Assembly (NCBI GenBank): GCA_000017645.1
Contig: CP000781.1
Location: forward strand, 3,211,501-3,275,500
Direction of reading: 5' to 3'
DNA length: 64,000 nt
Source of the DNA: Xanthobacter autotrophicus Py2
GTDB lineage: Bacteria; Pseudomonadota; Alphaproteobacteria; Rhizobiales; Xanthobacteraceae
Part shown: one piece after another, positions 1,795 through 18,054 of the stretch
Layout: each line of letters begins with the position of its first letter
Position numbering within the stretch: the first letter of the stretch is position 1
Position numbers and translations under genes: made by a program
The notes under the pieces: model-generated
What the model saw: the letters and a program-made list of their open reading frames with translations, nothing else
The model's database searches: none
Told to the model about the DNA's origin: nothing

Positions 1795-1797
1795 CCG

Positions 1798-2920: not shown

Positions 2921-3134
2921 GAGAGCGCTCGTTTCGTTGCACTGAAACGGCACAATCACGGAACGCACCGTGTTCAGCATACGTCGAAAGCGCACAGGAG
3001 ACGTCGACCATTCGTGCAGCCGCAACGACATAGCGGAGATGACGCAGTTCGATCCTCAGGGCGCAGTCTCCCTCCCTTTCCATAGAACTCCGAAGGCTTT
3101 GGCTCGTGAAGCTGATGGAGCAGAAATGCCGCTG

Positions 3135-3521: not shown

Positions 3522-3553
3522 GACCTTGATCCTTTCTGGTTAGACGCTGTCTC

Positions 3554-3679
3554 TTACCGACGGCGTGAAAAGATGTACTTGGCGAGGGCGATCGCCGCGA
3601 GCACGAGAACAATGATGATGACGAGCCAGAAAAAGCCCATGCCCCACATCATTCCTCCACCCATCATGTCTTGCATCAT
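3554..3679 (-). CDS. 41-residue Met-rich membrane peptide
   Basis: This short gene has an ATG overlapping the rhodanese stop codon (ATGA) and ends in TAA at 3554. The product starts MMQDMMGGGMMWGMGFF, continues as one hydrophobic helix (WLVIIIVLVLAAIALAKY) and ends in a basic tail (SRRR), so it should sit in the inner membrane with the C terminus in the cytoplasm. Methionine clusters often bind soft metals such as copper, but nothing here proves that. The tight overlap with its upstream neighbour and about 30 bases to DUF302 argue that it is translated. It resembles tiny membrane proteins often seen in metal or sulfur islands. Confidence 0.7.
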   Translation of the reverse strand: MMQDMMGGGMMWGMGFFWLVIIIVLVLAAIALAKYIFSRRR

Positions 3680-4068
3680 CGGTTGACCTCTTCCACGAGT
3701 CCGCCCGCCTGCTGGAGGGCCGGGAACCCGCCGGCGACATGCGCTACGTTCGTGATGCCCATTTCCTTGAGGGCCTTGGCGCCAAGAGCGGAGCGGTTAC
3801 CTGATCCGCAGTAGAGCACCAGCTTCTTGCCCCCGCCCAGCTCCGGCTTGTGCGTCGGGCTGGTCGGATCGGCCTGGAACTCGAGGAATCCGCGCGGCAC
3901 ATGCACGGCACCCCGGAGCTTACCTGTCTTTTGCAGCTCCTCGGCCTCGCGCACGTCCACAAACATCACGCTGGGGTCGCCCACCAACTTCGCTGCTTCT
4001 GGGCCCGAAAGCGTCTCGATGTCCCGGCTTGCCTCAGCCACTAGATCCTTTGCACTTTTCGTCGTCAT
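3676..4068 (-). CDS. Rhodanese-like sulfurtransferase
   Basis: This is a single-domain rhodanese of 130 residues. It would carry sulfane sulfur as a cysteine persulfide on Cys87 in the loop LVLYCGSGNRS. The upstream VMFVDVREAEEL segment (CH2A-like) and GAVHVPRG also fit the family. I chose the ATG at 4068 because AAGGAG lies seven bases upstream; a longer in-frame start at 4092 would overlap the previous gene. There is no signal peptide, so it is cytoplasmic. It sits between a persulfide dioxygenase and the small membrane gene in the sulfur operon and could pass sulfane sulfur to or from the dioxygenase, as rhodanese/dioxygenase pairs do elsewhere. Confidence 0.92.
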   Translation of the reverse strand: MTTKSAKDLVAEASRDIETLSGPEAAKLVGDPSVMFVDVREAEELQKTGKLRGAVHVPRGFLEFQADPTSPTHKPELGGGKKLVLYCGSGNRSALGAKALKEMGITNVAHVAGGFPALQQAGGLVEEVNR

Positions 4069-4079
4069 GATTGGCTCCT

Positions 4080-4985
4080 TCACTCGTCCCACGGTGCGTC
4101 GAGCGCATCGAGGGGGATCTTGAGATAACGTATGCCGTTTTCCTCGGGCTCAGGCAGCCGACCGCCCTGGATGTTCACCTGCAGGGAGTGCAGGATGAGC
4201 TTCGGCATAGGCAGCTCGCGGTCGCGCTTCTCGCGCAGGGCCACGAACTCCTCTTCCGTTCTTGCCTTTACGAGGTGCGTGTTCCTGGCCCTCTGCTCAG
4301 CCACTGTGCTTTCCCATTCCGGCTTTCGACCGCCAGGGCAGTAGTCGTGCCCGGTGAACAAGCGGGTGTCGTCGGGCAGCGCCATGATGCGTTGAATACT
4401 GTTCCACAGCACCTTTGCTGAGCCGCCAGGGAAGTCGGCCCGGGCTGTGCCGCCATCCGGCATGAAGATAGTGTCGTGGATGAAGGCGGCGTCGCCGACC
4501 ACGTAGGCGATCGAGGCGAGCGTGTGCCCCGGCGTGAACACCACCTCGACGTCCATGTTGCCGATCTTGAAACGTTCGCCGTCGGCGAAGAGCCGGTTCC
4601 ATTGCGAGCCGTCTGGCGGGAAGCTGTCGGGCAGGTTGTAGATCCCCTTCCAGAGCTTCTGGATCTCGACGACCTTCTCGCCGATGGCGGTCGGGACGGC
4701 TGTCTTGTCCTTGAGGTAGCCGGCCGCCGAGAAATGATCGGCATGCGGATGGGTGTCCAAAATCCACTCCAGCGTGTAGTCCTCCTGGTCGATATGCGCG
4801 AGGAGCTGATCGGCCGAGTGAGTGGCCGTAGCGCCGGACTTCGGATCGAAGTCCAGCACCGGGTCGATTATGGCGGCGCGCTTCGTCTCCGGATCGGCGA
4901 CGACATACTGGACGCTAGACGTGCGCTTCTCGAAGAAGCCCTTCACGACAGGGTTGCCTTTCAGAGGCGAAGACGAGGCGGGCAT
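4080..4985 (-). CDS. MBL-fold persulfide dioxygenase-like hydrolase (BLH type)
   Basis: This is a metallo-beta-lactamase-fold enzyme of 301 residues. The metal ligands are clear in LDTHPHADHFSA (His79, His81, Asp83, His84), FTPGHTLASI and LFTGHDYCPGG. This is the arrangement of ETHE1/BLH proteins, non-heme iron enzymes that oxidise glutathione persulfide to sulfite. It is longer than minimal ETHE1, with an insertion around KLWKGIYNLPDSFPPDG and a C-terminal segment LHSLQVNIQGG, as in bacterial BLH proteins next to BigR. The ATG at 4985 has a good Shine-Dalgarno (AAAGGAGC); the frame's upstream extension is noise. It lies in the operon between the sulfur permease and rhodanese genes. Confidence 0.9.
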   Translation of the reverse strand: MPASSSPLKGNPVVKGFFEKRTSSVQYVVADPETKRAAIIDPVLDFDPKSGATATHSADQLLAHIDQEDYTLEWILDTHPHADHFSAAGYLKDKTAVPTAIGEKVVEIQKLWKGIYNLPDSFPPDGSQWNRLFADGERFKIGNMDVEVVFTPGHTLASIAYVVGDAAFIHDTIFMPDGGTARADFPGGSAKVLWNSIQRIMALPDDTRLFTGHDYCPGGRKPEWESTVAEQRARNTHLVKARTEEEFVALREKRDRELPMPKLILHSLQVNIQGGRLPEPEENGIRYLKIPLDALDAPWDE

Positions 4986-5008
4986 GCAGTTTGCTCCTTT
5001 CGATTGAT

Positions 5009-5815
5009 TCATGGCTGAGTGGCTGTCAGCGCGAGGAGCCCTCGGGCAATAATGTAGAGGCCGACCACGATCACGAGGCCGGCGAAAAGCGTGCCCAGCA
5101 TTTGCTTGCGGCTGGCGACAACTTTTCCAAGTGCCGTCCCGACCAGCCCACCGACGAGCCCCCCGAGCACGAACAGGCCGGAGAGCCACCAGTCGACGAG
5201 CCCTGAGAGCGCGTAGCTGGCGGCCGTCGCCGCCCCGAAGGCCGCCACCCCAACGAGCGAGGTGCCGATGGCGAACGCGAGCGGCATCCGGGTCGCGAGC
5301 ATCAATCCCGGTACGATCAGGAATCCACCGCCGATCCCGAAGAACCCGGAGAACACTCCGACAGTGAAGCCGATCCCGAGAAGAAGAGGCAGGAGCTCTC
5401 GCGCAGTCTCGGACGAGAGGCGTACGTCCGGGTTGCCGCGGCCCTCCCGCCTGCGGAGCATCACGGCGCCGATCACGACCATCACGACGCCGAACAACGC
5501 CAGAAGCTTCTGGCCATCGACGGCTTTGGCGACGGCCGCGCCAGCAAATGCGCCGAGGACACCGGCGGCAGCGAAGACTGCGGCGCACCGCCATTTGACG
5601 TTGCCGGCGCGCCAGTGCGGGAAGAGATTGCCAAGGGCGCTCGCGGAAACAGCGACAGCGCTTGTGCCGATGGCCACGTGGGGCGAGGCCACGCCGACCA
5701 CGTAGACCAGCAGCGGCACGGCAAGGATCGAGCCGCCACCGCCCACGAGCCCGAGAACCAGCCCCACGATGCCGCCCGAGCCTGTGGCCAGGAGAGAGGT
5801 GATGAGGTCGGGCAT
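5009..5815 (-). CDS. TauE/SafE-family sulfite or organosulfur exporter
   Basis: This is a 268-residue integral membrane protein of the TauE/SafE (DUF81) family. It shows the duplicated glycine-rich signatures LGLVGGGGSILAVPLLV near the N terminus and FFGIGGGFLIVPGLML in the middle, and about eight hydrophobic helices. Members move sulfite, sulfoacetate or related anions across the inner membrane. The ATG at 5815 overlaps the stop of the preceding YeeE gene (TAATG), so the two are coupled. In a persulfide-oxidation operon, the likely job is export of sulfite made by the dioxygenases. Substrate is inferred from context. Confidence 0.92.
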   Translation of the reverse strand: MPDLITSLLATGSGGIVGLVLGLVGGGGSILAVPLLVYVVGVASPHVAIGTSAVAVSASALGNLFPHWRAGNVKWRCAAVFAAAGVLGAFAGAAVAKAVDGQKLLALFGVVMVVIGAVMLRRREGRGNPDVRLSSETARELLPLLLGIGFTVGVFSGFFGIGGGFLIVPGLMLATRMPLAFAIGTSLVGVAAFGAATAASYALSGLVDWWLSGLFVLGGLVGGLVGTALGKVVASRKQMLGTLFAGLVIVVGLYIIARGLLALTATQP

Positions 5816-6273
5816 TAGCCGTCTACTCCCGCCGGCCCGCGTCGGAAGGTCACCTGTGGCCAGTCGTCCGGGAGCAACCGGAACAGGGCCATGCCGGTCA
5901 TCATCGCCGTGATGAAGACGAAAACCTGCCAAGGCCCGAAGGTAAGCGCGGTCAAAGCCGGGCCCGGGCAGAGGCCGACCAGGCCCCATCCGACGCCGAA
6001 GAGCACGGCCCCACCGATCAGGCGCGGATCAAGATCGCGGCGGGTCGGGATCTCAAGCCGCCGCGCGAAGACCGGGACACCTCGGCGCTTGGCGAGGAGG
6101 TATCCGAGCGCAGACACTGCGAGGGCGCCGCCCATCACCAAGGCAAGGCTCGGGTCCCAGTTGCCGAAGACGTCGAGGAACCCGAGCACCTTCGCCGGAT
6201 TGACCATCTCGGAGATGACCAGCCCGAGGCCGAAGAGCAGCCCGGAGGCGAAGGCGGAGATGATGAGGGACAT
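5815..6273 (-). CDS. YeeE/YedE-family sulfur transport half-protein (second half)
   Basis: This 152-residue membrane protein (start at 6273, GGAGG upstream) corresponds to the C-terminal half of YeeE/YedE transporters such as the thiosulfate carrier TsuA. It begins with hydrophobic helices around FASGLLFGLGLVISEMVNPA and has the conserved VGWGLVGLCPGPALTAL motif with one key cysteine. It overlaps the stop of the other YeeE half by a few bases. Together the two short proteins make up what is one polypeptide in longer YeeE proteins. The pair probably imports thiosulfate or handles a sulfane-sulfur species; this rests on family knowledge. Confidence 0.9.
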   Translation of the reverse strand: MSLIISAFASGLLFGLGLVISEMVNPAKVLGFLDVFGNWDPSLALVMGGALAVSALGYLLAKRRGVPVFARRLEIPTRRDLDPRLIGGAVLFGVGWGLVGLCPGPALTALTFGPWQVFVFITAMMTGMALFRLLPDDWPQVTFRRGPAGVDG

Positions 6274-6277
6274 GGAG

Positions 6278-6703
6278 TCAGCCTCCGAGAACATGACGCG
6301 TGATGAAGACAGTGGCGATGGCCGTGGCCATGAAGACCGCTGTCGCGGCGAGCGAACGTGGCGAGCCGCGTGCGACGCCGCAAACGCCGTGACCGCTGGT
6401 GCAACCTGCCCCGAGACGGGTGCCGAAGCCGACGATCAGGCCTGCGACGGCCAGAAGCTCTATCGAAGGAGTCAGGGTGATCTGCGGCAGCGCGCCGCCA
6501 AGCGCGGCGTAGAGGAATGGGGCGAGGAAGAGGCCGGCGACGAAAGCCAGGCGCCAGCCGATCTCATTGCGGGCAGGATGAATGAAGCCGCCGAGGATGC
6601 CGCTGACACCCGCGATGCGGCCATTCAGGAAGAGGAACAGAGCCGCGGAGGCGCCGATCAACAGGCCGCCGAGCAGCGCTGATACCGGAGTAAAGTTGTC
6701 CAT
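6278..6703 (-). CDS. YeeE/YedE-family sulfur transport half-protein (first half)
   Basis: This is the first gene of the sulfur operon. The 141-residue membrane protein begins MDNFTPVSALLGGLLIGASA and carries the diagnostic FGTRLGAGCTSGHGVCG signature, whose cysteines relay sulfur through YeeE-type channels. GAAGGA precedes the ATG at 6703. With the following gene it makes a split YeeE/YedE pair, the usual arrangement in bacterial BigR operons. The gene diverges from the ArsR-type repressor, and the approximately 300-base gap between them holds the control region. Confidence 0.92.
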   Translation of the reverse strand: MDNFTPVSALLGGLLIGASAALFLFLNGRIAGVSGILGGFIHPARNEIGWRLAFVAGLFLAPFLYAALGGALPQITLTPSIELLAVAGLIVGFGTRLGAGCTSGHGVCGVARGSPRSLAATAVFMATAIATVFITRHVLGG

Positions 6704-7006
6704 TCCTTCGACCCGATCAAAACATTAGACGATCCCTATTTAGGGTTGCCTTCATATCTGCGCAAGTGCGATGATATGCATCTACGACGGGTGAACGATG
6801 GAAACCGTTGGTGGTATCGGGTTACCATTCACCTCGCGAGTTTATCCAGGCTCGCGCCAACCCGTGACCGTTTCCGGTCGTTCGGGGGCAACAACATGCG
6901 GGAGGAACGGCTCGTTCATAGAGTCGCTGATCCTCCTGCTGCTGAGGAACTGCGCCACGCCTGCGCCCAGTCGCCCACCAAGCAACCTTGATGAGAGCCG
7001 ATGCCC
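6704..7006. promoter_or_regulatory. Divergent control region between sulfur operon and ArsR repressor
   Basis: This stretch separates the minus-strand sulfur operon from the plus-strand repressor gene and has no convincing gene. It is visibly AT-richer than its surroundings. A perfect 5-2-5 palindrome CCCTATTTAGGG lies at 6734-6745, about 30 bases upstream of the operon start. At 6751 the half-site TTCATAT matches the left half of the palindrome at 7007-7020. These are reasonable repressor or polymerase sites for the operon, but no exact -35/-10 pair could be assigned with confidence. Confidence 0.5.
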
Positions 7007-7020
7007 TTCATATGTATGAA
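7007..7020. promoter_or_regulatory. Candidate BigR/SqrR-type operator
   Basis: TTCATATGTATGAA is a perfect inverted repeat with 6-base arms, equivalent to TTC-N8-GAA. As I recall, SqrR recognises ATTC-N8-GAAT, so the spacing fits a persulfide-responsive ArsR protein. The site overlaps a possible ATG start (7012) of the repressor gene, which would suit autorepression. If the true start is the ATG at 7024, the operator is just upstream of translation. Confidence 0.55.
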
Positions 7021-7431
7021 ACTATGAAGATAGAAGAGATGTTCCAAGCGGTAGAGCAAGCGACAGACCTCTTGAAGGCGCTTGCCAGTCGGAACCGCCT
7101 TCTCCTCCTCTGCTACCTTTTGGAGGGCGAGAGGTCGGTCGGCGAACTCGCTCGCCTCATCCAGGCACGGGAGACAGCTGTCTCGCAACAACTGGCGCTG
7201 CTCCGCAAGGATGGCTTGGTTCGCACCCGGCGTGAGGGCCAGACTGTCTACTACACGCTCGCGAGCACAGAGGCCGCCAAAGTCATAGAGACACTCCATG
7301 GAATATATTGCGCGCCGATCGCGGAAGCAGCCGCTGTCGCGCCCGCGGCGGTTGCTGGCAGCGCTAACGACCAGTCACATGTGAAGAACAGCCACACCGG
7401 ACCTGAAAACTCAGATCCTCAGGAGAATTGA
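7012..7431 (+). CDS. ArsR/SmtB-family persulfide-sensing repressor (BigR/SqrR-like)
   Basis: This small winged-helix repressor has the ArsR core LLKALASRNRLLLLCYLLEG, the recognition region ETAVSQQLALLRKDGLVRTR and the wing REGQTVYYTL. Two cysteines sit where BigR/YgaV/SqrR proteins have their sensing pair: one in LLLLCYLLEGE and one in HGIYCAP. In those proteins they form an intramolecular polysulfide bridge that releases DNA. After the domain comes an unusual tail of about 35 residues rich in Ala and Asn. The start could be 7012, 7024 or a TTG at 6988. It most likely represses the divergent sulfur operon and the downstream dioxygenase gene. Confidence 0.88.
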   Translation: MYETMKIEEMFQAVEQATDLLKALASRNRLLLLCYLLEGERSVGELARLIQARETAVSQQLALLRKDGLVRTRREGQTVYYTLASTEAAKVIETLHGIYCAPIAEAAAVAPAAVAGSANDQSHVKNSHTGPENSDPQEN

Positions 7432-7557
7432 TCATGAACTACTGCCGTCGCGATGGCCTCGACGGAAGCCGTCCATAATTCGGCCCTGCACGAAGCAACG
7501 CATGAGGTTCGCCAAAAGCGCGCGCGTCATGGACTCCAAGCCGCCGGGAGCCTGAAC

Positions 7558-8310
7558 ATGAACTTTCGCCAACTGTATGAGCCGGAATCTTCAACCTACA
7601 CTTACCTGTTCGGCTGCCGCGACACAGGAGAAGCCGTGCTTCTCGACCCGGTCCTGGAGACGTTGGACCGGGACCTCTCCGCTCTCCAGGATCTCGGTTT
7701 AAGGCTCGCATACACACTCGAGACGCACATCCATGCCGACCATGTCACATCCGCTTGCCGGTTGCGGAGCATCACTGGATGCAAGGTGGCTTATCCTGAG
7801 CTGGACGGTCTTCCTTGTGCCGACGTGGGCGTGAGCGAGGTCAACCCGCTGTCCGTCGGTCACCTCACATTCAATCCCCTCTATACTCCTGGCCACACCG
7901 ACTCGCATCACAGCTACCTCATCGACGTTCCTGGCGTGACGAGGGTTTTCACAGGCGATGCCCTTCTGATCGACGGGTGCGGACGAACGGACTTTCAGGG
8001 CGGTGACGCGGCCGCGCTCTACCGCTCGATCCACGAGAAGATCTTCACTTTGCCCGGAGAAACTCTCGTCTATCCCGCCCATGACTACCAGCACCGCCAC
8101 GTTAGTACGGTGGAGCAGGAGCGCGAGCGAAACCCGCGTCTTGGCGCCGGCAAAAGCTTGGACGAGTTCATCCAGATCATGAGCGATCTCAACCTGCCAT
8201 ATCCGAAGCGGATCGATATCGCTCTGCCCGCCAATCGAATGTGCGGGGACTGCCCGGATGAGGCCGAGATCATGAGAGCTGAACCGGAAGGACCATCGAT
8301 ACAAGGCTAG
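7558..8310 (+). CDS. ETHE1-like persulfide dioxygenase (MBL fold)
   Basis: This second metallo-beta-lactamase-fold persulfide dioxygenase has 250 residues. Iron ligands are in LETHIHADHVTSACRL (His57, His59, Asp61, His62), YTPGHTDSHH and VYPAHDYQHRHVSTV, with DGCGRTDFQGGD as in ETHE1. The ATG at 7558 is preceded by GGGAG and matches the family N terminus (MNFRQLYEPESSTYTY); the frame's 35 upstream codons are unlikely to be translated. Near the end, PANRMCGDC holds a CGDC pair. It follows the ArsR gene in the same direction. This form is compact, whereas the paralogue at 4080-4985 is longer, so the two may differ in persulfide donor. Confidence 0.92.
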   Translation: MNFRQLYEPESSTYTYLFGCRDTGEAVLLDPVLETLDRDLSALQDLGLRLAYTLETHIHADHVTSACRLRSITGCKVAYPELDGLPCADVGVSEVNPLSVGHLTFNPLYTPGHTDSHHSYLIDVPGVTRVFTGDALLIDGCGRTDFQGGDAAALYRSIHEKIFTLPGETLVYPAHDYQHRHVSTVEQERERNPRLGAGKSLDEFIQIMSDLNLPYPKRIDIALPANRMCGDCPDEAEIMRAEPEGPSIQG

Positions 8311-8355
8311 CTCGCCCTGCTGCATCTTCCGCCGATCTGATCAAGGGGTTCCCTC

Positions 8356-9876
8356 ATGCTTCTTTCACGTCGAACGGTTCTGGCGGGAGCTGGCGTTCTT
8401 GGATTAGGCATTGCGGGCTTTGCTGCTCGCCCTATCCTGTGGCCTAGGAGCGGAACTGACACACAGGCGCTCAAGATCCCACCCCTACTCGACCCGCGGG
8501 CGAGCGGGGGATCTGCCTCGCTTCGCGTGCAGACTGGAACAACCGAGTTCTACCCTGGACGGTTCAGCGAGACGCTCGGATACAATGGGTCTTACCTCGG
8601 CCCGACCATCCGGGTCAGGCGGGGAGATTCCGTCCAGGTCAACGTCAAGAATGAGCTTGCTGAGACCACCACTGTGCACTGGCACGGCCTACTCGTTCCA
8701 GGCCCGCTGGATGGGGGGCCGCACCAGCCTATCAGTCCAGGTCAGACGTGGCGTCCGCTGCTCCCGATCGACCAACCGGCTGCCACCTTGATGTATCACT
8801 CGCACGTTCACGGGCTCACCGCGGAACAGGTTTATCGGGGCCTGGCAGGCGTCTTCATCATTCAGGACGACGAGGAGCAGCGTCTCGGGCTTCCGAACGA
8901 CTATGGAGTGGACGACCTGCCGCTTGTCCTACAGGATCGTCAGTTTGAGGACGGCCTGCTCGTAATGCCAAACGGCATGATGACGCTCATGCAGGGCAGG
9001 CGCGGCGATATCGTTCTGGTAAACGGCACTCCTAACCCCGTGGCTCAGGTGCCTCCACGCCTCGTGCGGCTACGCATGGTGAACGCGTCAAACGCGCGCG
9101 TCTACGATCTTTCATTCGAGGACAAGAGGGCCTTCCACTGGATCGCGACCGAGGGCGGCCTTCTTGAACGACCGGTGCAGTTGCAATCGATACGCCTTGC
9201 TCCCGGGCAGCGCGCCGAACTGCTGGTGGACTTCTCGGATCGAAGCCCCGTGGGGCTGCTAACTACCGCTGATTCCAACTCGAGAATAATGGGCATGATG
9301 CCTATGATGCAAGACTTCGGCCGAGACCGTGTTGCGGGTGGAGCGTTCATCAGGTTTGAGCCGGGCGCGGCTGCTTCGGGAGCCGCATCCGTGCCTAAGC
9401 TGCTCATCGCACAGGAGCGGGTTCAGCCTTCGGCAGCGATACGGCGGCGCCGGCTGGTCCTCAACATGGGTATGGGCGGAATGATGGGCGGCGGCATGAT
9501 GGAAGAACAGATGTCGGGCGACACTAGAACGGAAGCCGGTCCCATGGCTGCCCCGTTCAGCATCAATGGCCGCCCCTTCGACATGCGGCGGATCGATGAG
9601 AGCGTGACCCTTGGCAATACGGAGATTTGGGAAGTCTCGGGCGAGATGATGGCTCACCCGCTCCATATCCACGGCGTCCACTTCGAGGTGCTGAGCAGGG
9701 CGGGAAGGAAGCCAGACGTCCTGGATCAGGGACTCAGAGATACAGTTCTGGTGCGCGAACCCGCGGAGCTGCTCGTCAAGTTTAGCAAGGCCTCGCAGGG
9801 CTACCCCTTCATGTATCACTGCCACATTCTGGAGCACGAGGACAACGGAATGATGGGCCAATTCTCCGTCGAATAG
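8356..9876 (+). CDS. Tat-exported multicopper oxidase, CueO-like
   Basis: This 506-residue multicopper oxidase starts with a twin-arginine signal (SRRTVLAGAGVLGLGIAGFA), so it is exported folded with copper. Copper ligands are HWHG (108-111), MYHSHVHG (148 onward), HPLHIHGVHFEV and YHCHILEHEDNGMM, giving type 1, 2 and 3 sites. The Met-rich insert MGMGGMMGGGMMEEQM before the C-terminal domain is the region CueO uses to bind Cu(I), and LPNDYGVDDLPLVLQDR is also CueO-like. Expected role: periplasmic oxidation of cuprous ions or phenolics. It follows the persulfide dioxygenase gene by 45 bases and could share its transcript; a link between copper and reactive sulfur is inference. Confidence 0.9.
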   Translation: MLLSRRTVLAGAGVLGLGIAGFAARPILWPRSGTDTQALKIPPLLDPRASGGSASLRVQTGTTEFYPGRFSETLGYNGSYLGPTIRVRRGDSVQVNVKNELAETTTVHWHGLLVPGPLDGGPHQPISPGQTWRPLLPIDQPAATLMYHSHVHGLTAEQVYRGLAGVFIIQDDEEQRLGLPNDYGVDDLPLVLQDRQFEDGLLVMPNGMMTLMQGRRGDIVLVNGTPNPVAQVPPRLVRLRMVNASNARVYDLSFEDKRAFHWIATEGGLLERPVQLQSIRLAPGQRAELLVDFSDRSPVGLLTTADSNSRIMGMMPMMQDFGRDRVAGGAFIRFEPGAAASGAASVPKLLIAQERVQPSAAIRRRRLVLNMGMGGMMGGGMMEEQMSGDTRTEAGPMAAPFSINGRPFDMRRIDESVTLGNTEIWEVSGEMMAHPLHIHGVHFEVLSRAGRKPDVLDQGLRDTVLVREPAELLVKFSKASQGYPFMYHCHILEHEDNGMMGQFSVE

Positions 9877-9907
9877 CTATCGGCAATGTTTGGCCCTGTC
9901 CGGCTCA

Positions 9908-10696
9908 TTACGTGAATGCTTCTGCGAAACAACGACGCGACGCCCGTCGACAGCTCGCCCCGAAGAAGGAGTGCATTCTCTCCGCTGGGATGCCGTGCTT
10001 CTTCTGCGTCGTTGTCGTTCCGTGCGCGATCCCGGCGCATACGCGGCCGTGACCCATGTGGTGGAGCACTTCAGTGTTCATGATCGGATGAGCCGCAAAT
10101 GGCGGGTGGTCTGGCGTCTCCAGCCCGTAAGCCTCGTGAGGGCCAACGAGAAGCTTGAGCAGCGCCGCCGCGTCGGGCGGGTGCGCCCATTCCGGCAGCC
10201 CGTCGCGGCGGCGGAAGAATTGGTCGCTAGGCCGCCCTGCGATAAATTTCGGCACGAACCAGTAGCCGCGACGCATCGAAAGCGATACGGAAGCAGCTGT
10301 TCGAGCCACGTCGCAGGCGATATCGGCACCCGAATTGCCGCCGCCGACCACCAGGACGCGCCTGCTCTGCACCTCATCGGCCGAGCGGGAGGTCACCGAA
10401 TGGCGGATAGCGCCGCCGAACGCCTCGGCACCCGGCAGCTCCGGGATGATCGGGTCCCATAGCGTTCCAGATGCGCAAACAAGGGCAGCGTATTCGCGAG
10501 ACTGGCCGCCCGAGTGGAACCGTTTGCTCGATGCCATGACCAGGTTGTTGCGCAACGGCGCCCGCATCACTGCCTCGAATGGCACCCGCGCCCGACTCGA
10601 GGAGATGAGATGGCCGATTTTTATCGGGTCACCCCGCCGGGAGGCGACGGAGGCCGCGCTTCGGGAATGGCGTGAACGCAGAAACGCGTGATCCAT
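9908..10696 (-). pseudogene. Flavin-containing monooxygenase remnant
   Basis: The reading frame contains the central part of an FMO/CzcO-type flavoprotein: AALVCASGTLWDPIIPELPG, the NADPH-binding RRVLVVGGGNSGADIACDV, and PKFIAGRPSDQFF. The N-terminal FAD-binding GxGxxG motif and the C-terminal third are missing. After HPIMNTEVLHHMGHGRV the sequence loses family likeness, and the N-terminal 60 residues also look random. I read this as a decayed, truncated gene left between the oxidase and the mercury module. A short active protein from this frame is improbable. Confidence 0.75.
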
Positions 10697-10844
10697 TCTA
10701 ATAATGCGTTAGACGCACGACTCACGGAGACACTTCCTCAAAACAGATAGACCGCTGTCGGCCAACAGATGCCCTCAGCAGTGGCGCTCGCGATCGTACT
10801 GCGGCGGTGAGGGACGATAGGCGGCGACTTTTCGGCGACCCTAG

Positions 10845-11109
10845 CGTAGTAAGCCCTCTCCGGCCTATGCTCGCCGTAGCAGGGCTGCTCTACGAACGAG
10901 CGTAGTAGATTTGGCTAGCCGAAGGTACTTTTGGCGGGATCTTCGTGCCTGCGGTCGCAATATCAGAGTGCTCCAGCGGAAACGTAGTTATCAGTTTCAT
11001 CTACGCTGGGACGCCAAATCCCGCCTTTTCTTCGCGGCGGCACGACCTCGCACTCCAGACTACGATCACTGCTGATGGCATCGTCGTAGGCAGGTGAGTT
11101 GTGGCGTAG
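10845..11109. repeat. Cluster of nine CGTAG/CTACG motifs
   Basis: In 265 bases the pentamer CGTAG occurs on either strand nine times: plus strand at 10845, 10875, 10901, 10983, 11095 and 11105; minus strand (CTACG) at 10890, 11001 and 11070. The 8-mer GCGTAGTA occurs twice. Chance would give about one. It lies in the non-coding gap between the FMO remnant and merR and overlaps the first hairpin repeat. It could be an array of binding sites for a recombinase, replication or partition protein. The function is unknown. Confidence 0.6.
10961..11016 (+). repeat. Hairpin-forming 56-bp direct repeat, copy 1 (left of mer module)
   Basis: This segment matches 16611-16666 at 51 of 56 positions, in the same orientation. 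Its core has outer arms CCAGCG and CGCTGG, then GAAAC and GTTTC around a short centre with GTTATCA, so it can fold into a stepped hairpin. Outside it, GGCGGGAT (10933-10940) and ATCCCGCC (11018-11025) form a further perfect inverted repeat. Together with copy 2 it brackets the mercury genes. It may be an attachment or end sequence of the mobile unit that carried them. Confidence 0.75.
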
Positions 11110-11135
11110 AAAATTCGCCACCTGTTCCAGACTGG

Positions 11136-11558
11136 CTACTTGTGTCCGGCGAACAGCGTCTCGATAAGCGGACATTCCGGCAGCGTGCCGTCGGCGCATT
11201 GCGCGACCACGTCCTTAAGCACCCGCTCCATCCGTCTTAGGTCGGCTATCTTCGCCCGCACATCGTCGAGGTGCGTGGCGGCCACAACCCGCGCTTCCGC
11301 GCAGGGCTGGTCCCGCTCGTCGACGAGGCGCAAGAGTTCGCGGATCTCGTCGAGCGAGAAGCCGAGCTCGCGCGCCCGCAGCACGAACCGAAGGCGCCGC
11401 TCATGCGAGGTGTCGTAGCTGCGATAGCCGCTCGCTGTGCGCGGCGGGTCGGGTAGAAGGCCGACCTTCTCGTAATAGCGCACGGTCTCCAGGTTGCAGC
11501 CCGTCCGCTGGGCGAGCTCGGCCCGTTGCAGGCCCTTCACCACGGCGTGATCGCGCAT
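11136..11558 (-). CDS. merR: Mercury-responsive regulator MerR
   Basis: This is a 140-residue MerR with an N-terminal winged helix (RAELAQRTGCNLETVRYYEK, then GLLPDPPRTASGYRSYD), a long dimerisation helix and the metal site at the C terminus. Three cysteines match the Hg(II) ligands of MerR: Cys86 in RDQPCAEAR, Cys121 and Cys129 in QCADGTLPECPLI. The ATG at 11558 was chosen to give the normal family length; the frame is open much further upstream over the promoter. It is transcribed away from merT, and the two share the operator at 11572-11602. It should repress without mercury and activate with it by DNA underwinding. Confidence 0.95.
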   Translation of the reverse strand: MRDHAVVKGLQRAELAQRTGCNLETVRYYEKVGLLPDPPRTASGYRSYDTSHERRLRFVLRARELGFSLDEIRELLRLVDERDQPCAEARVVAATHLDDVRAKIADLRRMERVLKDVVAQCADGTLPECPLIETLFAGHK

Positions 11559-11571
11559 CGCAAAAACCCTC

Positions 11572-11602
11572 TTGACCCTGTAGTGACTACAGACCGCATG
11601 GT
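11572..11602 (+). promoter_or_regulatory. MerR-type promoter/operator for merTPF-merBA
   Basis: On the plus strand, TTGACC (11572-11577) is a good -35. A perfect 7-1-7 dyad CTGTAGTGACTACAG (11578-11592) lies in the spacer, and CATGGT (11597-11602) is a weak -10. The 19-base spacer is the overlong spacing typical of MerR-activated promoters. It sits between merR and merT, 42 bases before the merT ATG. Confidence 0.85.
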
Positions 11603-11643
11603 ACGGCACAGATAGTATTTCGGCAAGGATAGAGAGGTCGGAC

Positions 11644-12069
11644 ATGGACACCGCGCGACCAGGAACAGTAGCGGTCACATCGGGCGAAGCGGGCGTCGCC
11701 GCGTCGGAGCGGAGCGAGGTCGGACGGCAGCGCTTGGTCGCCGTCGGCGGCATTCTCGGCGCGCTTGCCGCCTCCTCCTGCTGCATCGTGCCACTCGTCT
11801 TGTTCAGCCTCGGCATCGGTGGCGCCTGGATTGGCAATCTGACGGCGCTCGCACCCTACAAGCCATTGTTCGTCGCCGGGACGACGGGTGTTCTCGGCTA
11901 CGGCTTCTACCTCGTCTACTGGAAGCCGCGGCAAGCCTGCGCCGATGACGCGGCCTGTGCACGCCCGATCCCCAGCCGCCTCGTGCAAATCGCGCTTTGG
12001 ATCGCAACGGTCCTCGTCGCGGCTGCCTTCGCCTTCGACTATGTCGCGCCGCTGCTGCTTCGCGCCTGA
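11644..12069 (+). CDS. merT: Mercuric ion transporter MerT
   Basis: This inner-membrane protein of 141 residues brings Hg(II) from MerP to MerA. After an unusually long hydrophilic N-terminal leader of about 28 residues, helix 1 carries the vicinal cysteines Cys46-Cys47 (LAASSCCIVPLVLFSLG). Two further helices follow. The second loop holds another cysteine pair, Cys99 and Cys105 (RQACADDAACARP), thought to pass mercury to the reductase. It is the first gene downstream of the mer promoter, about 20 bases before merP. Confidence 0.94.
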   Translation: MDTARPGTVAVTSGEAGVAASERSEVGRQRLVAVGGILGALAASSCCIVPLVLFSLGIGGAWIGNLTALAPYKPLFVAGTTGVLGYGFYLVYWKPRQACADDAACARPIPSRLVQIALWIATVLVAAAFAFDYVAPLLLRA

Positions 12070-12089
12070 GCAAAGAGGAGATCCATTCC

Positions 12090-12386
12090 ATGAAGACCTA
12101 TTTGAGCGCTCTCGCCCTGATCGCCTCGGTGATGACGGCGCCGGCTGCGTTTGCTGCCGAACGTACGATCACCTTCGCCGTCGACAACATGACCTGCGCC
12201 TCCTGTCCCTACATCGTAAAGACCTCGATGGCAGCGGTGCCCGGGGTGACGAAGGTGGCGGTCTCGTTCGAGGCGAAGACCGCCACCGTGACCTTCGATG
12301 ACGGGAAAACGAACCCCGACGCCATCGCGGCGGCCAGCATGAACGCCGGCTATCCCGCCCGCCCGACGCAGCAGCAAGGCAGTTGA
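12090..12386 (+). CDS. merP: Periplasmic mercury-binding protein MerP
   Basis: This 98-residue product has a cleavable Sec signal (MKTYLSALALIASVMTAPAA, likely cut after AFA) and a single heavy-metal-associated domain. The binding motif is DNMTCASCPYIV with Cys36 and Cys39. It scavenges Hg(II) in the periplasm and hands it to MerT or MerF. AGAGGAG precedes the ATG at 12090; the frame's earlier start lies inside merT and is not real. Spacing to merF is one base, so they are co-translated. Confidence 0.95.
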   Translation: MKTYLSALALIASVMTAPAAFAAERTITFAVDNMTCASCPYIVKTSMAAVPGVTKVAVSFEAKTATVTFDDGKTNPDAIAAASMNAGYPARPTQQQGS

Positions 12387-12387
12387 C

Positions 12388-12627
12388 ATGAATGACCGTG
12401 CCCTGATCCGCACCGGCACCGCCGGCGCCACTGTTGCCGCGATCTGCTGCGCGATGCCTGTCCTCGCGGTGCTCCTGCCGCTGGTTGGTCTGAGCGCGTG
12501 GATGGCACGCGCGGATCTAGTGCTGTTTCCACTGCTGGCGGCGAGCCTCGGGCTCATCGCGTGGGGCGTTTATCGGCGCCGCACCAGAGCCGCCTGTTGC
12601 GAGACGAGAATCACGAAGAAGGCCTGA
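12388..12627 (+). CDS. merF: Mercury transporter MerF
   Basis: MerF is a small (79-residue) two-helix inner-membrane mercury transporter. It shows both vicinal cysteine pairs expected: Cys20-Cys21 in helix 1 (VAAICCAMPVLAVLLPL) and Cys70-Cys71 near the C terminus (TRAACCETR). Having merF as well as merT gives two uptake routes in one operon, a fairly common arrangement. It begins one base after merP and ends four bases before the MerB-MerA gene. Confidence 0.92.
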   Translation: MNDRALIRTGTAGATVAAICCAMPVLAVLLPLVGLSAWMARADLVLFPLLAASLGLIAWGVYRRRTRAACCETRITKKA

Positions 12628-12631
12628 AGCA

Positions 12632-14935
12632 ATGAACGATTGCTGCGCATCCACCGCGTCCCGGGACAAGGTTGCGGCTTCCGCATCCGCGACACTGCCG
12701 AGCTATGCCGTGCGGCCAGGTGTGACGTTCCCGGACTGGCCGGTGGTTTCGTCGCTCGTGGTCAAAGACGCCCTGCTGGCAATGGTCGGGTCCGGCCATG
12801 TGCTCAACCGCTGGAGCGGCTACGACCCGGCCACGGACCGCGTTCGCGTTGTGCTGCTTCAGCTTTACGCCGAACACGGACGAGCTCCGACGCCCGGTGC
12901 GCTTGCCAAGTGTGCGGCGCTGAGCGAGACGGCCATCCAGCCGCTGCTCCAAGATCTCCGCCGTCGCGACCTGGTCGTTCTCGACGGCGACAAGATCGTC
13001 GGCGCCTATCCTTTCACCGACCGCGACACCGGCCACCGGGTCACACTGGATGGACGCACTCTCAATGCCATGTGCGCGGTCGACGCGCTCGGCATCGGTG
13101 CCATGACCGGCCACGACATCGCGATCGCATCGAGCTGCCGCTACTGTGGCGCGCCAATCCGGATCGCCACGCGAGATCGAGGCAGGGCGTTGGCCCAGGT
13201 CGAGCCGCGGACGGCCTTCGTGTGGCTCAGCGTCCGTTATGAAGGCGCGTGCGCTGCGAACTCACTATGCGCGGCAACGTCATTCTTCTGTTCGGACGAT
13301 CACCTCGCCGCGTGGCGTCAGGAGCGTCGATCCGCCGAACCGGGATTCCGGCTGTCAATCGAGGAAGCCCTGGAAGCAGGTCGAGCGATCTTCGGGCCGA
13401 GCCTTGCCGGTGTGACCGCCGGCGAACGTGCGGTCGACCTCGCTGCCGAGGCGCGTGGAGCATTTCCATCATCGGTCGATACCGTGTCGAAAAACACGCC
13501 GACGGCAGGCCGGCGGGTTGCCTCGAACGGGCGCAATGGCGGTGGCTACGATCTCGTCGTCATCGGCGCCGGCTCGGCCGGCTTCTCGGCCGCGATCACA
13601 GCCGCCGACCAAGGCGCGCAGGTAGCGCTCATAGGGAGCGGCACCATCGGCGGCACCTGCGTCAATATCGGCTGCGTGCCGTCGAAGACGCTGATCCGCG
13701 CCGCCGAGACGCTCCACAATGCTCGGGCGGCAGCGCGCTTCGCCGGCATCTCGGCCGAGGCCGAAGTGACCGACTGGCGGGGAACCGTTCGCCAGAAGGA
13801 CGCGCTCGTTTCCGGGTTGCGCCAGGCCAAGTACATTGACCTCCTCCCGGCCTATAACGGCATCGCCTATCGCGAAGGGCCGGCGCGCCTCATGGACCGT
13901 GGCGTCGAGGTGGACGGCACGCGCATTCCCGCCGGCAAGATCATCATCGCGACCGGCGCGCGGCCGGCGGTTCCTGCCATCCCCGGCATCGAGACCGTGC
14001 CGTATCTCACCAGCACGACGGCGCTCGACCTCGAGGAGCTGCCGCGGTCGCTGCTTGTGATCGGCGGCGGCTATATCGGAGCGGAGCTCGCCCAGATGTT
14101 CGTCCGCGCCGGCGTCAAGGTGACGCTCGTGTGCCGGTCCCGCTTGCTCCCCGAGACCGAGCCCGAGATCAGCGCGGCCCTGACGGCGTATTTCGCAGAC
14201 GAGGGGATCACCGTGACCTCCGGTATTGCCTACCGCGCCATTCGGAAGACTGAGGACGGTGTCTCGCTCATTGTTGCGCGCGACGGCCAGGACACGACGA
14301 TCGAGGCGGACCGGGTACTGATCACCACCGGCCGCACACCCAATATTGAAAGCCTGGGGCTCGCCGAACACGAGATCGCCGTCTCGTCTAGGGGCGCCAT
14401 CGTCATTGATGATCGGATGCGCACGACCCGCGCCGGCATCTATGCCGCCGGCGACGTCACCGGCCGCGACCAGTTCGTTTACATGGCCGCCTACGGCGCA
14501 AAGCTCGCGGCGAAGAACGCCCTCAATGGCGACAGCTTGCGCTACGACAACAGCGCCATGCCCGCCGTCGTGTTCACCGACCCGCAGGTGGCGAGTGTCG
14601 GGCTGACGGAGGCCGCGGCTCGAACGGCGGGGTATGCCGTCCGTGCCTCGACGATCGGTCTCGACCAGGTGCCGCGCGCGCTCGCCGCGCGCGACACCCG
14701 CGGGCTCATCAAGCTTGTCGCCGACGCCGGCAGCGGCCGGCTGCTCGGCGCGCATATCCTGGCGCCGGAGGGTGCTGACAGCATTCAGACCGCGGCGCTC
14801 GCGATCCGGCACCGCCTCACCATCGACGACCTCGCGGATACGATCTTTCCGTATCTCACCACAGTCGAGGGCCTGAAGCTCGCGGCGCTGTCGTTCAGCA
14901 AGGACGTCGCGAAGCTGTCGTGCTGCGCGGGCTGA
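12632..14935 (+). CDS. merBA: MerB-MerA fusion: organomercurial lyase / mercuric reductase
   Basis: This 767-residue protein joins two enzymes. Residues about 65-260 are a MerB alkylmercury lyase domain: the catalytic set is Cys148 and Asp151 in NAMCAVDALG and Cys213 in NSLCAATSFF, with structural Cys169 in ASSCRYCG. The spacings (3, 21, 65) match MerB Cys96, Asp99, Cys117 and Cys159. Residues about 305-767 are MerA: FAD-binding VIGAGSAGFSA, redox pair Cys343/Cys348 in GGTCVNIGCVPSK, NADPH-binding VIGGGYIGAEL, and the C-terminal Cys764-Cys765 that hands Hg(II) to the active site. The usual N-terminal NmerA metal domain is absent. One chain should cleave C-Hg bonds and reduce the released Hg(II) to Hg(0). 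I recall such proteins being named MerBA. Confidence 0.93.
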   Translation: MNDCCASTASRDKVAASASATLPSYAVRPGVTFPDWPVVSSLVVKDALLAMVGSGHVLNRWSGYDPATDRVRVVLLQLYAEHGRAPTPGALAKCAALSETAIQPLLQDLRRRDLVVLDGDKIVGAYPFTDRDTGHRVTLDGRTLNAMCAVDALGIGAMTGHDIAIASSCRYCGAPIRIATRDRGRALAQVEPRTAFVWLSVRYEGACAANSLCAATSFFCSDDHLAAWRQERRSAEPGFRLSIEEALEAGRAIFGPSLAGVTAGERAVDLAAEARGAFPSSVDTVSKNTPTAGRRVASNGRNGGGYDLVVIGAGSAGFSAAITAADQGAQVALIGSGTIGGTCVNIGCVPSKTLIRAAETLHNARAAARFAGISAEAEVTDWRGTVRQKDALVSGLRQAKYIDLLPAYNGIAYREGPARLMDRGVEVDGTRIPAGKIIIATGARPAVPAIPGIETVPYLTSTTALDLEELPRSLLVIGGGYIGAELAQMFVRAGVKVTLVCRSRLLPETEPEISAALTAYFADEGITVTSGIAYRAIRKTEDGVSLIVARDGQDTTIEADRVLITTGRTPNIESLGLAEHEIAVSSRGAIVIDDRMRTTRAGIYAAGDVTGRDQFVYMAAYGAKLAAKNALNGDSLRYDNSAMPAVVFTDPQVASVGLTEAAARTAGYAVRASTIGLDQVPRALAARDTRGLIKLVADAGSGRLLGAHILAPEGADSIQTAALAIRHRLTIDDLADTIFPYLTTVEGLKLAALSFSKDVAKLSCCAG

Positions 14936-15137
14936 TAGAGATTCATTCAGGCAATACTCGTTTTCAAGCGCAAGAACTGCCGCGCGCTTCTGTCATCGAC
15001 CTGATACCTGCCACCTCGCCGCAGACCAAGAGAACGGTGACGAGCGCGACCCGGATAGGCACGCTGATGCCGCTTGCTCTCGCGGGAATCGGCGCCGCGT
15101 TCGGATGGGCGGCAGCAGGCATAAGTAGGAGAGACGA

Positions 15138-16484
15138 ATGGCGGAGCAATACGACCTCGTAGTCATAGGAACCGGCACGGCTGCCATGGTCGCTGCCATG
15201 CGCGTGCGCGCTGCCGGCTGGAGTGTGGCGATCATCGACTACCGGCCTTTCGGCGGCACCTGCGCCCTACGCGGCTGCGACCCGAAAAAGATGCTTGTCG
15301 GCGGTGCCTCGGCCCTCGACCACGCCCGGCGCATGCGGGGCAACGGCGTTGCCGGCGACGTCCATATCGACTGGCCCGAACTGATTGCCTTCAAGCGCAC
15401 CTTCACCGATCCAGTCCCTGAAAAACATGAACACCGCTACGATGAAAAGGGCATCCATACGTACCGCGGGCACGCGCGCTTCACGGGCCGGAACAGCCTG
15501 ACGGTGGACGGCGAGAGCCTTGAAGCCCGCCACGTCCTTATCGCTGCGGGTGCCGAGCCGATAAGGCTAGGGATTCCCGGTGAAGAGTACTTCGCCACCA
15601 ACGAAGACTTCTTGGCCATGGAGCGACTGCCACGCCGGATCGTGCTGGTTGGCGGCGGGTATATTGCGTCGGAGTTCTCCCACATCGCTGCGCGTGCGGG
15701 TGTGCAGGTGACGATTCTCCAGCGTGGCAAACGGATGCTTGGACACTTTGACCCGGACCTCGTGGGCTGGCTCATGGACAAGTTCCGGGAGATCCGGGTG
15801 GATGTGCGCTTGCGGACCACGGTAAGCGCGATCGAGAAGGACCATGCGGGCTTTGTCGTCCGCGCTTCCTCAGAAGGCGGAGACGCGACCTTCGACGCCG
15901 ACCTCGTTGTCCATTCGGCCGGCCGCGCGCCTGCGCTCGACGCGCTTGATCTTGAGGCCGGCGGCGTCGCCGCGGAGAAGGGCCGGCTCAAGCTGAATGA
16001 GTACCTGCAGAGCGTCTCTAACGCAGCCGTATATGCCGCCGGCGATGCGGCACAGGAGGGGCCGCCGCTGACTCCCGTCTCCAGCCACGACGCCAAGATG
16101 GTCGCCGCTAACCTCCTGGAGGGCAATCGGCATAGACCCGACTATCGCGGCGTGCCAAGCGTCGCCTTCACGATCCCGCCGATCGCCGCCGTCGGGCTGA
16201 GCGAGGAACAAGCACGTCAGCAGGACCTGAAATTTCAGACGAAGTCCCAGAAGGCGTCCGACTGGTTTACGGCCCGCCAGGCCGTAGAGAAGACCTATGG
16301 CTTCAAGGTGATGGTGGAGGACGATACGGGGCGCATCATCGGCGCTCATCTTGTCGGGCCGCACGCCGATGAAGTGATCAACCTGTTTGCCCTGGCGATC
16401 CGCCACGACCTGACGGCCGACAATCTGAAGACGACAATGTTCGCGTATCCCACTGGCGCCTCGGATATCGGCTACATGCTCTGA
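15138..16484 (+). CDS. Glutathione-reductase-like pyridine nucleotide-disulfide oxidoreductase
   Basis: This is a 448-residue flavoprotein of the disulfide reductase family. FAD-binding VIGTGTAAMVAAMRV lies at the N terminus, the redox pair is Cys42/Cys47 in GGTCALRGCDPKK, and NAD(P)-binding VLVGGGYIASEF is central. The C-terminal dimer-interface motif that is HPT..E in glutathione reductase reads AYPTGASDIGYML, so the active-site His is Tyr437. It may therefore not be a classical glutathione reductase. It lies 200 bases after merBA in the same direction and inside the repeat-bounded mercury module, suggesting thiol maintenance or metal reduction. The substrate is unknown. The ATG at 15138 has GGAGAGACGA upstream. 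Confidence 0.88.
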   Translation: MAEQYDLVVIGTGTAAMVAAMRVRAAGWSVAIIDYRPFGGTCALRGCDPKKMLVGGASALDHARRMRGNGVAGDVHIDWPELIAFKRTFTDPVPEKHEHRYDEKGIHTYRGHARFTGRNSLTVDGESLEARHVLIAAGAEPIRLGIPGEEYFATNEDFLAMERLPRRIVLVGGGYIASEFSHIAARAGVQVTILQRGKRMLGHFDPDLVGWLMDKFREIRVDVRLRTTVSAIEKDHAGFVVRASSEGGDATFDADLVVHSAGRAPALDALDLEAGGVAAEKGRLKLNEYLQSVSNAAVYAAGDAAQEGPPLTPVSSHDAKMVAANLLEGNRHRPDYRGVPSVAFTIPPIAAVGLSEEQARQQDLKFQTKSQKASDWFTARQAVEKTYGFKVMVEDDTGRIIGAHLVGPHADEVINLFALAIRHDLTADNLKTTMFAYPTGASDIGYML

Positions 16485-16610
16485 ATGCTGGTATCAACGG
16501 CAAGCATGTCGCCGAGCGCCTTCAACTTGTTTGCAGCACCCCAAAGTCGTCGCAGGGAGATGGCGTGCAGGATCGCATTTTAGGCGGCGTTGGCGTTTTG
16601 TGGGATACGC

Positions 16611-16666
16611 TCTCATAGTGCCCCAGCGGAAACATAGTTATCAGTTTCATCTACGCTGGGGCGCCA
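16611..16666 (+). repeat. Hairpin-forming 56-bp direct repeat, copy 2 (right of mer module)
   Basis: This is the partner of 10961-11016, with 51 of 56 bases identical and the same orientation. In this copy the outer arms are a perfect 9-bp inverted repeat, GCCCCAGCG and CGCTGGGGC, with inner arms GAAAC and GTTTC. It lies 127 bases after the flavoprotein gene and about 150 bases before the IS3-family element. The distance between copies is 5650 bases and the enclosed DNA is the whole mercury module. Confidence 0.75.
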
Positions 16667-16693
16667 TTAAATCAACGACTTAGCCATAGCCTA

Positions 16694-16724
16694 CCGTTTC
16701 AGTTCCGCGATCTGAAACGGTTTT
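16694..16724 (+). terminator. Candidate rho-independent terminator after the mer module
   Basis: CCGTTTCAG (16694-16702) and CTGAAACGG (16712-16720) form a perfect 9-bp stem with a 9-base loop, followed at once by TTTT. It would stop plus-strand transcripts leaving the mercury genes. The stem is not very GC-rich and the T-run is short, so strength is uncertain; it may also belong to the mobile end sequence. Confidence 0.5.
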
Positions 16725-16816
16725 GGCTGCAGTGTGCGATTGGGCCGCATTGGCCACGACCCTCCGCGAAGCGCTTTCCAAGCCGCCAGGGATGATGCGC
16801 TGGGCTCAGGGCTCAT

Positions 16817-16841
16817 TGGCCTGCTGCCGGTTCTGTGGACA
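16817..16841 (+). repeat. IS3-family element, left terminal inverted repeat
   Basis: This 25-base end starts TGGCCTGCTGCCGG and matches the reverse complement of 18030-18054 at 23 positions. It lies five bases from the end of orfB, as expected for the right (transposase 3') end of a compact IS3-type element. Confidence 0.85.
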
Positions 16842-16846
16842 CGCGG

Positions 16847-17994: not shown

Positions 17995-18029
17995 TCCTGC
18001 TCTCCAGTCCGTTGAACACCTTATCTCGG

Positions 18030-18054
18030 TGTCCACGAAACCGGCAGCAGGCCA
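18030..18054 (+). repeat. IS3-family element, right terminal inverted repeat
   Basis: This end carries the orfA promoter side. Read inward on the minus strand it begins TGGCCTGCTGCCGGTT and ends GTGGACA, mirroring 16817-16841 with two mismatches. Confidence 0.85.

Follow-up and report, generated by a model that had tools for sequence, protein, structure and literature searches.

What are the two near-identical repeats that enclose a set of mercury resistance genes? The question is raised by a 64,000-nucleotide stretch of the Xanthobacter autotrophicus Py2 chromosome (CP000781.1, positions 3,211,501 to 3,275,500), called here the window, in which the mer genes lie between the repeats 10961-11016 (site 1) and 16611-16666 (site 2). 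A first-pass annotation had described 56-bp direct repeats in the same orientation with no recombinase gene between them, and had proposed either a cassette moved in trans or a site left by recombination between two element ends. The repeats are present as described, identical at 51 of 56 bases and both in the same orientation, and a repeat search of the window returned them as one family (D3, 54 nt, 93%, spacing 5650). The list of open reading frames (ORFs) and a profile search likewise found the mer block free of recombinase genes. The repeat is the border of a mobile element rather than the border of the mer genes. The two copies are very probably right attachment arms of a predicted conjugative element inserted at a tRNA-Arg gene, the left one being the joint of the mercury module, and the arms encode a swappable tail of the element's recombinase. 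The left copy likely marks the joint where an integrase-less mercury module was added, and the mercury genes are likely to ride along with the element. The best classification of the whole is as a composite integrative and conjugative element (ICE) that has an unexpected coding attachment arm and a serine integrase directed at tRNA genes.

The ends of the element are visible in a comparison with Hephaestia caeni (contig NZ_QXDC01000005.1), which carries a near-identical element including the mercury module and both repeats. This contig matches window positions 1-10000 at 100% (rounded) and 4603-16668 at 99.99-100%. Leftward the identity (99.9%) reaches the 3' end of a tRNA-Arg gene, and directly beyond site 2 the two sequences part. 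The composite is inserted at a different tRNA-Arg gene in the two genomes (the anticodon is ACG in Xanthobacter and TCT in Hephaestia), an indirect hint of excision and transfer, and it finishes on the same end base. In the window genome the distance from the tRNA CCA is 47,880 bp to position 16666; measured to the last base of site 1 it is 42,230 bp. An empty site was found in relative G007 (G, C and L numbers are our handles for genomes, contigs and loci), where tRNA-Arg(ACG) reads ..GCGCGCCA followed by TTAAATCAATGACTTAGCC, as against ..GGCGCCA followed by TTAAATCAACGACTTAGCC in the window, and a similar one in G011 of the same genus. Because the flank in G007 and G011 directly follows the tRNA-Arg gene, the element sits exactly between the tRNA CCA and the old downstream flank. 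In 13 other genomes of the genus, BLAST detected the window flank in 2 and the locus held other DNA in 8; in G002 this tRNA is occupied by another element, whose recombinase is related, and at 2 of the 13 loci the tRNA is absent from the stretch. As in an ICE, precise ends and an empty site go together with an integrase, a large serine recombinase, and with conjugation genes (Pfam Relaxase/DUF3363, T4SS-DNA_transf, T2SSE, CagE_TrbE_VirB, TrbL and TrbI). The transfer region left of the window (G000:C1:3191501-3211500, G000 being the window genome) encodes a relaxase, a coupling protein and TrbB/E/L-type genes. A stretch of about 1.57 kb in the Xanthobacter element (G000:C1:3197798-3199364, L053:6298-7864), which overlaps an IS110-type transposase ORF, is missing from the Hephaestia copy and was probably inserted after the two copies separated. 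An IS3-family insertion (window 16817-18054, transposase 16847-17707, imperfect 35-bp inverted ends I2) is found in the host DNA, some 150 bp beyond the right end of the element.

The likely actor at these ends is encoded elsewhere in the element. Its single large serine recombinase (G000:C1:3180242-3181939, minus strand; Pfam Resolvase, Recombinase and Zn_ribbon) has an ORF whose final codons lie inside the tRNA gene. A comparable arrangement was observed at 31 of 40 homologous loci, which are best hits and no random draw (the fragmentary or distant recombinases L072-L074 were left out): the recombinase gene reaches with its 3' end into that of a tRNA gene or stops at most 200 bp from it, the tRNA being Ser in 12, Arg in 10, Glu in 4, Asn in 3, and Trp and Thr in 1 each. 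A C-terminus of the type W-R-x(1-4)-[DEG]SN, which is the antisense reading of the tRNA T-arm, was found in 111 of the 120 best database homologues, the family numbering at least 4,815 homologues at E<=1e-60. Among curated models, CcrB and CcrC of SCCmec come nearest, both far under cut-off (CcrB 110.7 bits versus 900), and the closest solved structures are the SPbeta recombinase YokA and the TP901-1 integrase. A tRNA island of the tyrosine-integrase kind was rejected, as the element contains not one of the genome's 18 PF00589 hits; the nearest (C1:2495376 and C1:3374807) are outside 3180210-3228168. The genome encodes three further recombinases of the same family, 54-66% identical (C1:277988-279592, 587575-589212 and 2942717-2944324), at least one of which adjoins tRNA-Ser(gga) (L141); this points to several elements of the same kind in one chromosome. 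Outside Alphaproteobacteria, a 67%-identical recombinase occurs on plasmids of Enterobacter hormaechei and Klebsiella oxytoca (H33-H38), and a 59% relative is found on a 4.3-kb faecal 'Bacteriophage sp.' record, MT839362.1.

The arm itself proved to be a coding sequence. The unit shared by the two sites is larger than the 56-mer, about 116 bp (10901-11016 and 16551-16666) with a diverged outer part, and arm copies mostly start near CGTAGT and finish with ..GCGCCA. Hephaestia aside, the outer half of the right arm is common only to the mer-bearing loci L024 and L034 among the loci compared. After removal of duplicates (L001, L002, L019, L020, L021, L030, L038, L040, L059, L062), of the contig-edge copy L027 and of the weak hits L009 and L010, 31 arm loci remained; 29 of them were aligned, L023 and L034 being left out. 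The minus-strand recombinase frame continues over the core into the arm and ends ..WRPSVDETDNYVSAGAL-stop, so that the 54-bp core, read from the recombinase gene over the crossover, encodes the conserved tail SVDETDNYVSAGAL-stop. Codon differences from the consensus in this frame are 56 synonymous and 29 non-synonymous, as compared to 10:80 and 6:82 in the other two minus frames. One plus frame gives 52:36; it shares the same wobble positions and contains an internal TAG. The synonymous fraction of 0.66 was reached in none of 500 column shuffles (mean 0.26, maximum 0.60). The stop codon is kept in all 29 aligned arms and in the left-out L034, and the conserved block has a sharp left edge because it starts at this stop codon. 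A Methylocystis junction (L016) reads into the same tail, GVRSFIRKWRPSVDETDNYVSAGAL, and a search with the joined query found a full-length natural recombinase, P0121 (549 aa), that ends in GVRSFIRKWRPSVDETDNYVSAGAL. Frame conservation, the junction L016 and P0121 together argue that the arm is an attachment half-site and at the same time an alternative gene end. Both copies can fold as the stepped hairpin described earlier (right copy -15.0 kcal/mol, z -6.4; left copy -8.1 kcal/mol, z -2.25), and a function for the hairpin was rejected, since the 29-arm alignment holds a two-sided compensated change in none of 8 predicted pairs; the consensus fold also lacks the inner GAAAC/GTTTC stem. An Rfam scan of the window matched a tRNA and no family for the repeat.

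These observations suggest how the element could move. The recombinase would cut at the GCGCCA core that the sites have in common. If excision ended at the inner arm, 42.2 kb would be freed, the element alone, and if it ended at the outer arm, 47.9 kb with the mer genes; since the latter would take the mer genes along, they could be mobilised in cis, in the manner of a cis-mobilizable element (CIME). In the circle the recombinase gene would read ..KWR-PSVDETDNYVSAGAL-stop, and after insertion ..KWR-AGEDSNSRPPDS-stop off the antisense strand of the tRNA gene. Insertion would therefore swap the recombinase C-terminus, because integrated copies read the tail from the host tRNA gene, as in the 111 homologues mentioned above. 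At five arm-to-left-end junctions the left end shows a partner motif, AAACTG-like facing CAGTTT-like 27-31 bp apart. The sequence of the spare tail is suggestive of the ssrA tags of the hosts (own tmRNA tag ANDNYAPVAQAA, Methylocystis ANDNYAPVAVAA, Hephaestia ANDNEALAIAA). Against the own, Methylocystis and Hephaestia tags, 12, 6 and 49 of 1,989 control C-termini score at least as high as the tail DETDNYVSAGAL, in a comparison that was designed after the resemblance had been noticed and whose controls are mechanical ORF ends; among 120 other homologue C-termini the numbers are 0, 1 and 3. DNY at 6-7 residues from the end occurs in no control C-terminus. It could be speculated that the spare tail is an ssrA-like degradation signal and that insertion alters the lifetime of the recombinase. 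The attachment site would then be a protein switch, the circle encoding an integrase with an ssrA-like tail that is exchanged at insertion for the tRNA-antisense tail, and tandem spare tails would be cargo seams; this extension is tentative and, on present evidence, somewhat unlikely.

The arm is not confined to mercury genes. It had been proposed that the repeat be checked for other cargo, and other cargo was indeed found at it. In Methylocystis, on contigs C40 and C46, a 95%-identical recombinase and related transfer DNA precede a pair of arms at a distance of 2.55 kb, with other cargo; in G379 two arms 4.7 kb apart adjoin related DNA, and WHTP01000134.1 has an array of three consecutive arms. 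In L022, G057 and G046 a tRNA-Arg gene and an arm delimit an island of 2.9-3.1 kb, and the G046 island keeps a recombinase remnant. Composite elements with integrase-less modules thus recur, as several contigs show arms in tandem with other cargo. Eight contigs show a left end together with an arm (own, Hephaestia, Methylocystis C40 and C46, G103:C82, L022, G057 and G046), and in every one of them the arm is on the far side in the same orientation; these eight overlap, as C40 and C46 may be one element seen twice and the own and Hephaestia copies are the same element. The pairing of a Hyphomicrobium tRNA-Glu recombinase (67 kb) with an arm (214.7 kb) is uncertain and was not counted. A degenerate-pattern search of the genome collection gave 25 stretches, 23 with titles of Alphaproteobacteria and 2 of just Proteobacteria; viral contigs and phages gave no match, so a viral or phage origin of the arm was rejected. 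Two of 72,556 plasmid records have the site, both Rhizobium. The arm is present in 6 of 101 relatives by BLAST and, by covariance model at E<=1e-5, in 7 of 385 genomes of the class, three of them weak; the genomes counted hold 1 to 4 copies. A conserved stretch of about 90 bp (..ATCGGATGCAC..GTACGGTATCG..) follows the arm in L013, L031, L037, G379:C4 near 402400 and G117:C8:21844, apparently in reversed orientation in G117, and is possibly a second type of attachment site.

Several observations weigh against the attachment-arm reading. No tRNA gene was recognised beside the recombinase at 9 of the 40 loci, the tRNA-type tail is missing in 9 of the 120 best homologues, the left-out arm L023 has no stop, and P0121 is the one protein found with the spare tail. 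Two-fold symmetry around the core is clearly above shuffles in just 3 of the 5 arm-to-left-end junctions. It is above shuffles in neither window site, as would be expected if each of these joins an arm to other DNA. No recombinase half-site partner was recognised right of site 1 (11017), so this site may be inert. The third own copy of the arm (G000:C1:818977-819094) shows neither a tRNA gene nor a recombinase in 80 kb, nor do the G055 and G051 stretches in 40 kb. Genomes with an arm often lack the recombinase, and at several arms no tRNA is close by. The tie between arm and recombinase (E<=1e-100) within a genome is weak, with one sample opposing it (1 of 6 arm genomes among the 101 relatives, Fisher p 0.72) and the other supporting it (2 of 7 among the 385 class genomes, p 0.014). 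Arms without a recombinase or tRNA may be decayed islands, arrays or units moved in trans. Finally, related mer DNA stands beside an arm, with no left arm found, in Hyphomicrobium L024 and in L034, a contig from a metagenome-assembled genome, which shows that the left arm is dispensable for the presence of mer.

The features of the composite in the window are collected in Table 1. The true merR start is probably internal to the listed ORF, and the FMO-like gene was possibly cut when the left junction formed. The element also holds an IS110 transposase (Pfam). Mer DNA related to the module occurs in 3,742 plasmid records, none of which covers 80% of the query, and these relatives are normally without the site. 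The module is free of integrase and transfer genes, as is a CIME as defined in PMC5704250. Right-type arms stand on either side of it, and no left half-site was recognised at 11017. The mer module between two arms was met solely as part of the complete composite, once in Xanthobacter and once in Hephaestia.

Table 1. Positions of the element, arm and mercury module features in the window
Feature	Position	Strand	Basis
TrbG/TrbI-type conjugation genes, right part of transfer region	2..1794	+	Pfam TrbI for 589-1794; TrbG for 2-592 by eye only
Cargo: two Lactamase_B metallo-hydrolases, TauE, Sulf_transp-type, ArsR-type regulator, multicopper oxidase	3676..10696	.	Pfam, ORFs
Cargo: persulfide-dioxygenase-like (the Lactamase_B proteins), rhodanese-like gene	3676..10696		by eye only
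Truncated FMO-like gene beside site 1	9908..10696		Pfam match to profile positions 140-237 of 532
Left attachment arm, predicted internal right-end arm, site 1; core CGCCA 11012-11016	10901..11016	+	29-arm alignment, repeat family D3, similarity to arms elsewhere
Coding block of site 1, predicted spare recombinase tail ..WRPSVDETDNYVSAGAL-stop	10963..11016	-	codon analysis of aligned arms
Integrase-less mercury module, 5.65 kb with site 2	11017..16610	.	ORFs, profile search
merR ORF, MerR domain residues 106-228	11136..11837	-	TIGR02051 132.2 bits, under 150.85 cut-off
merT	11644..12069	+	NF010314 96.5 bits, under 150 cut-off
merP, MerP match residues 32-121 of listed ORF	11997..12386	+	TIGR02052 91.4 bits, just under 92.55 cut-off
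merF	12388..12627	+	NF033565 above cut-off
merBA, organomercurial lyase / mercury(II) reductase fusion	12632..14935	+	MerA (TIGR02053) above cut-off, residues 306-767; merBA annotation of related genes on plasmids
Second FAD/NAD-dependent disulfide reductase, MerA/glutathione-reductase-like	15138..16484	+	below cut-offs
Right attachment arm, site 2, right end of 47.9-kb element	16551..16666	+	Hephaestia identity stops here, empty site, alignment
Coding block of site 2, predicted spare recombinase tail	16613..16666	-	codon analysis of aligned arms
Host DNA directly after tRNA-Arg gene in two uninserted relatives	16667..16816	.	BLAST (L109, L119)

It could be possible that the mer module is a self-contained integrase-less cassette with ends of its own, moved in trans by the serine recombinase of a resident element and belonging to a large set of similar cargo cassettes. 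The same right arm does occur on integrase-less units with other cargo (L022, G057, G046, Methylocystis, WHTP01000134.1), and several of them begin with AAYNCCGCC, as compared with AATCCCGCC at the start of the mer module. This left-end resemblance is weak, however: 13 of 22 bases to G057, which 30 of about 63,900 window positions equal, and left-end local-alignment scores are not clearly above controls. The two-armed mer module has been found nowhere but in the whole composite, and G046 is a decayed element rather than a designed cassette because it kept its recombinase remnant. A cassette moved in trans is rather improbable. As to what had been said would defeat the cassette idea, mer relatives mostly lack the site, which goes against it, and the site borders other cargo, which goes in its favour; what survives of the original proposal is a border of site-specific recombination, a recombinase elsewhere in the element, and recombination between two element ends, which fits. 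Another possibility is that site 1 is by now an inert scar, left when a second mer element inserted next to the first and lost its left part or when homologous recombination took place between the arms of two elements, the module being plain cargo. L024 and L034, with related mer DNA beside a single right arm, are in line with such a history, as are the unrecognised left half-site at 11017 and the stretch 11017-11103, which is not shared with the mer relatives (similarity begins at 11104 and 11135). The arm and reading frame at site 1 are nevertheless intact. The scar stands a little short of an even chance, and it is compatible with the attachment-arm explanation.

An interspersed hairpin element of the repetitive extragenic palindrome (REP) or miniature inverted-repeat transposable element (MITE) kind, or an insertion sequence (IS) end, that came to flank mer by chance or transposition would explain why the repeat folds well, why it is present in many genomes and why nothing recognisable as an element surrounds the third own copy. 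Such an origin is extremely improbable and was rejected in view of the few copies per genome, the coding conservation and the exact coincidence with an element end and empty site, besides the lack of compensatory changes. As for the terminal inverted repeats of an IS or MITE, the window copies are direct repeats, and 80 kb around the third own copy showed no further arm, whether direct or inverted. An integron gene cassette, with attC and a tyrosine recombinase, fails for lack of covariation and of any of the own PF00589 hits inside the element, although an integrase encoded at another place in the chromosome could in principle act on it.

If the attachment arms do act as a protein switch, the state of integration would set the lifetime or activity of the integrase, family-wide and at many tRNA genes, and tandem spare tails would be seams where cargo such as mer is gained or lost. 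The conserved coding tail is a testable idea of how an integrase could sense insertion, that is, of directionality control in large serine recombinases. The arm or tail also gives a marker by which composite islands and cargo seams in Alphaproteobacteria can be mapped, and the integrases of the family are candidates for use where precise insertion at tRNA 3' ends is wanted.

Among known systems, the ICE-CIME tandem of Streptococcus ICESt1/ICESt3 is similar in having an integrase-less cargo unit beside a conjugative element, att-type repeats between them and a composite that appears as one unit. ICESt1 uses a tyrosine recombinase. The Xanthobacter composite differs in its serine recombinase, its very short core, the unrecognised left half-site at site 1 and an att arm that encodes the recombinase tail. 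Staphylococcal cassette chromosome (SCC) elements, including SCCmercury arrays, use Ccr serine recombinases and target rlmH. They likewise have a large serine recombinase, a distant CcrB relation here, and recombinase-less neighbours bracketed by direct repeats with mercury cargo; the present element targets a tRNA gene, carries conjugation genes and has a recombinase that is no Ccr by the curated cut-off. The CcrB score given above and the insertion at tRNA-Arg led us to reject an SCC element.

In the literature, serine integrases at tRNA genes are described as not known (PMC4383910) or as rare, with phiRSM1 named and actinomycete ICEs (AICEs) of Mycobacterium at tRNA-Leu described (PMC3218068); phage phiRSM integrates through a serine recombinase at 13 bp of a tRNA-Ser 3' end (PMC4471427), and of 79 Mesorhizobium elements 5 integrative and mobilizable elements and 1 ICE have serine recombinases (PMC8627217). 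Titles and opening lines of abstracts, mostly from outside subscription journals, contained no description of the arm, the coding tail or a tRNA-completed serine integrase. Against this background stands a large serine-integrase family with tRNA-completed ends in nearly all of its best members. As in phiRSM and the Mycobacterium AICEs, a serine recombinase would insert at a tRNA gene end; here the family is large, stands next to six tRNA types in Alphaproteobacteria and has a recombinase gene completed by the tRNA. The nearest parallel to a changed C-terminus is the integration-dependent immunity of mycobacteriophage BPs, in which, according to PMC4557955, the attachment site lies inside the repressor reading frame and the free form has an ssrA-like tag. 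Insertion changes a C-terminus there and would do so here; in BPs it is the repressor that is truncated, whereas in the Xanthobacter element the integrase would exchange its own tail for one that a host tRNA gene encodes.

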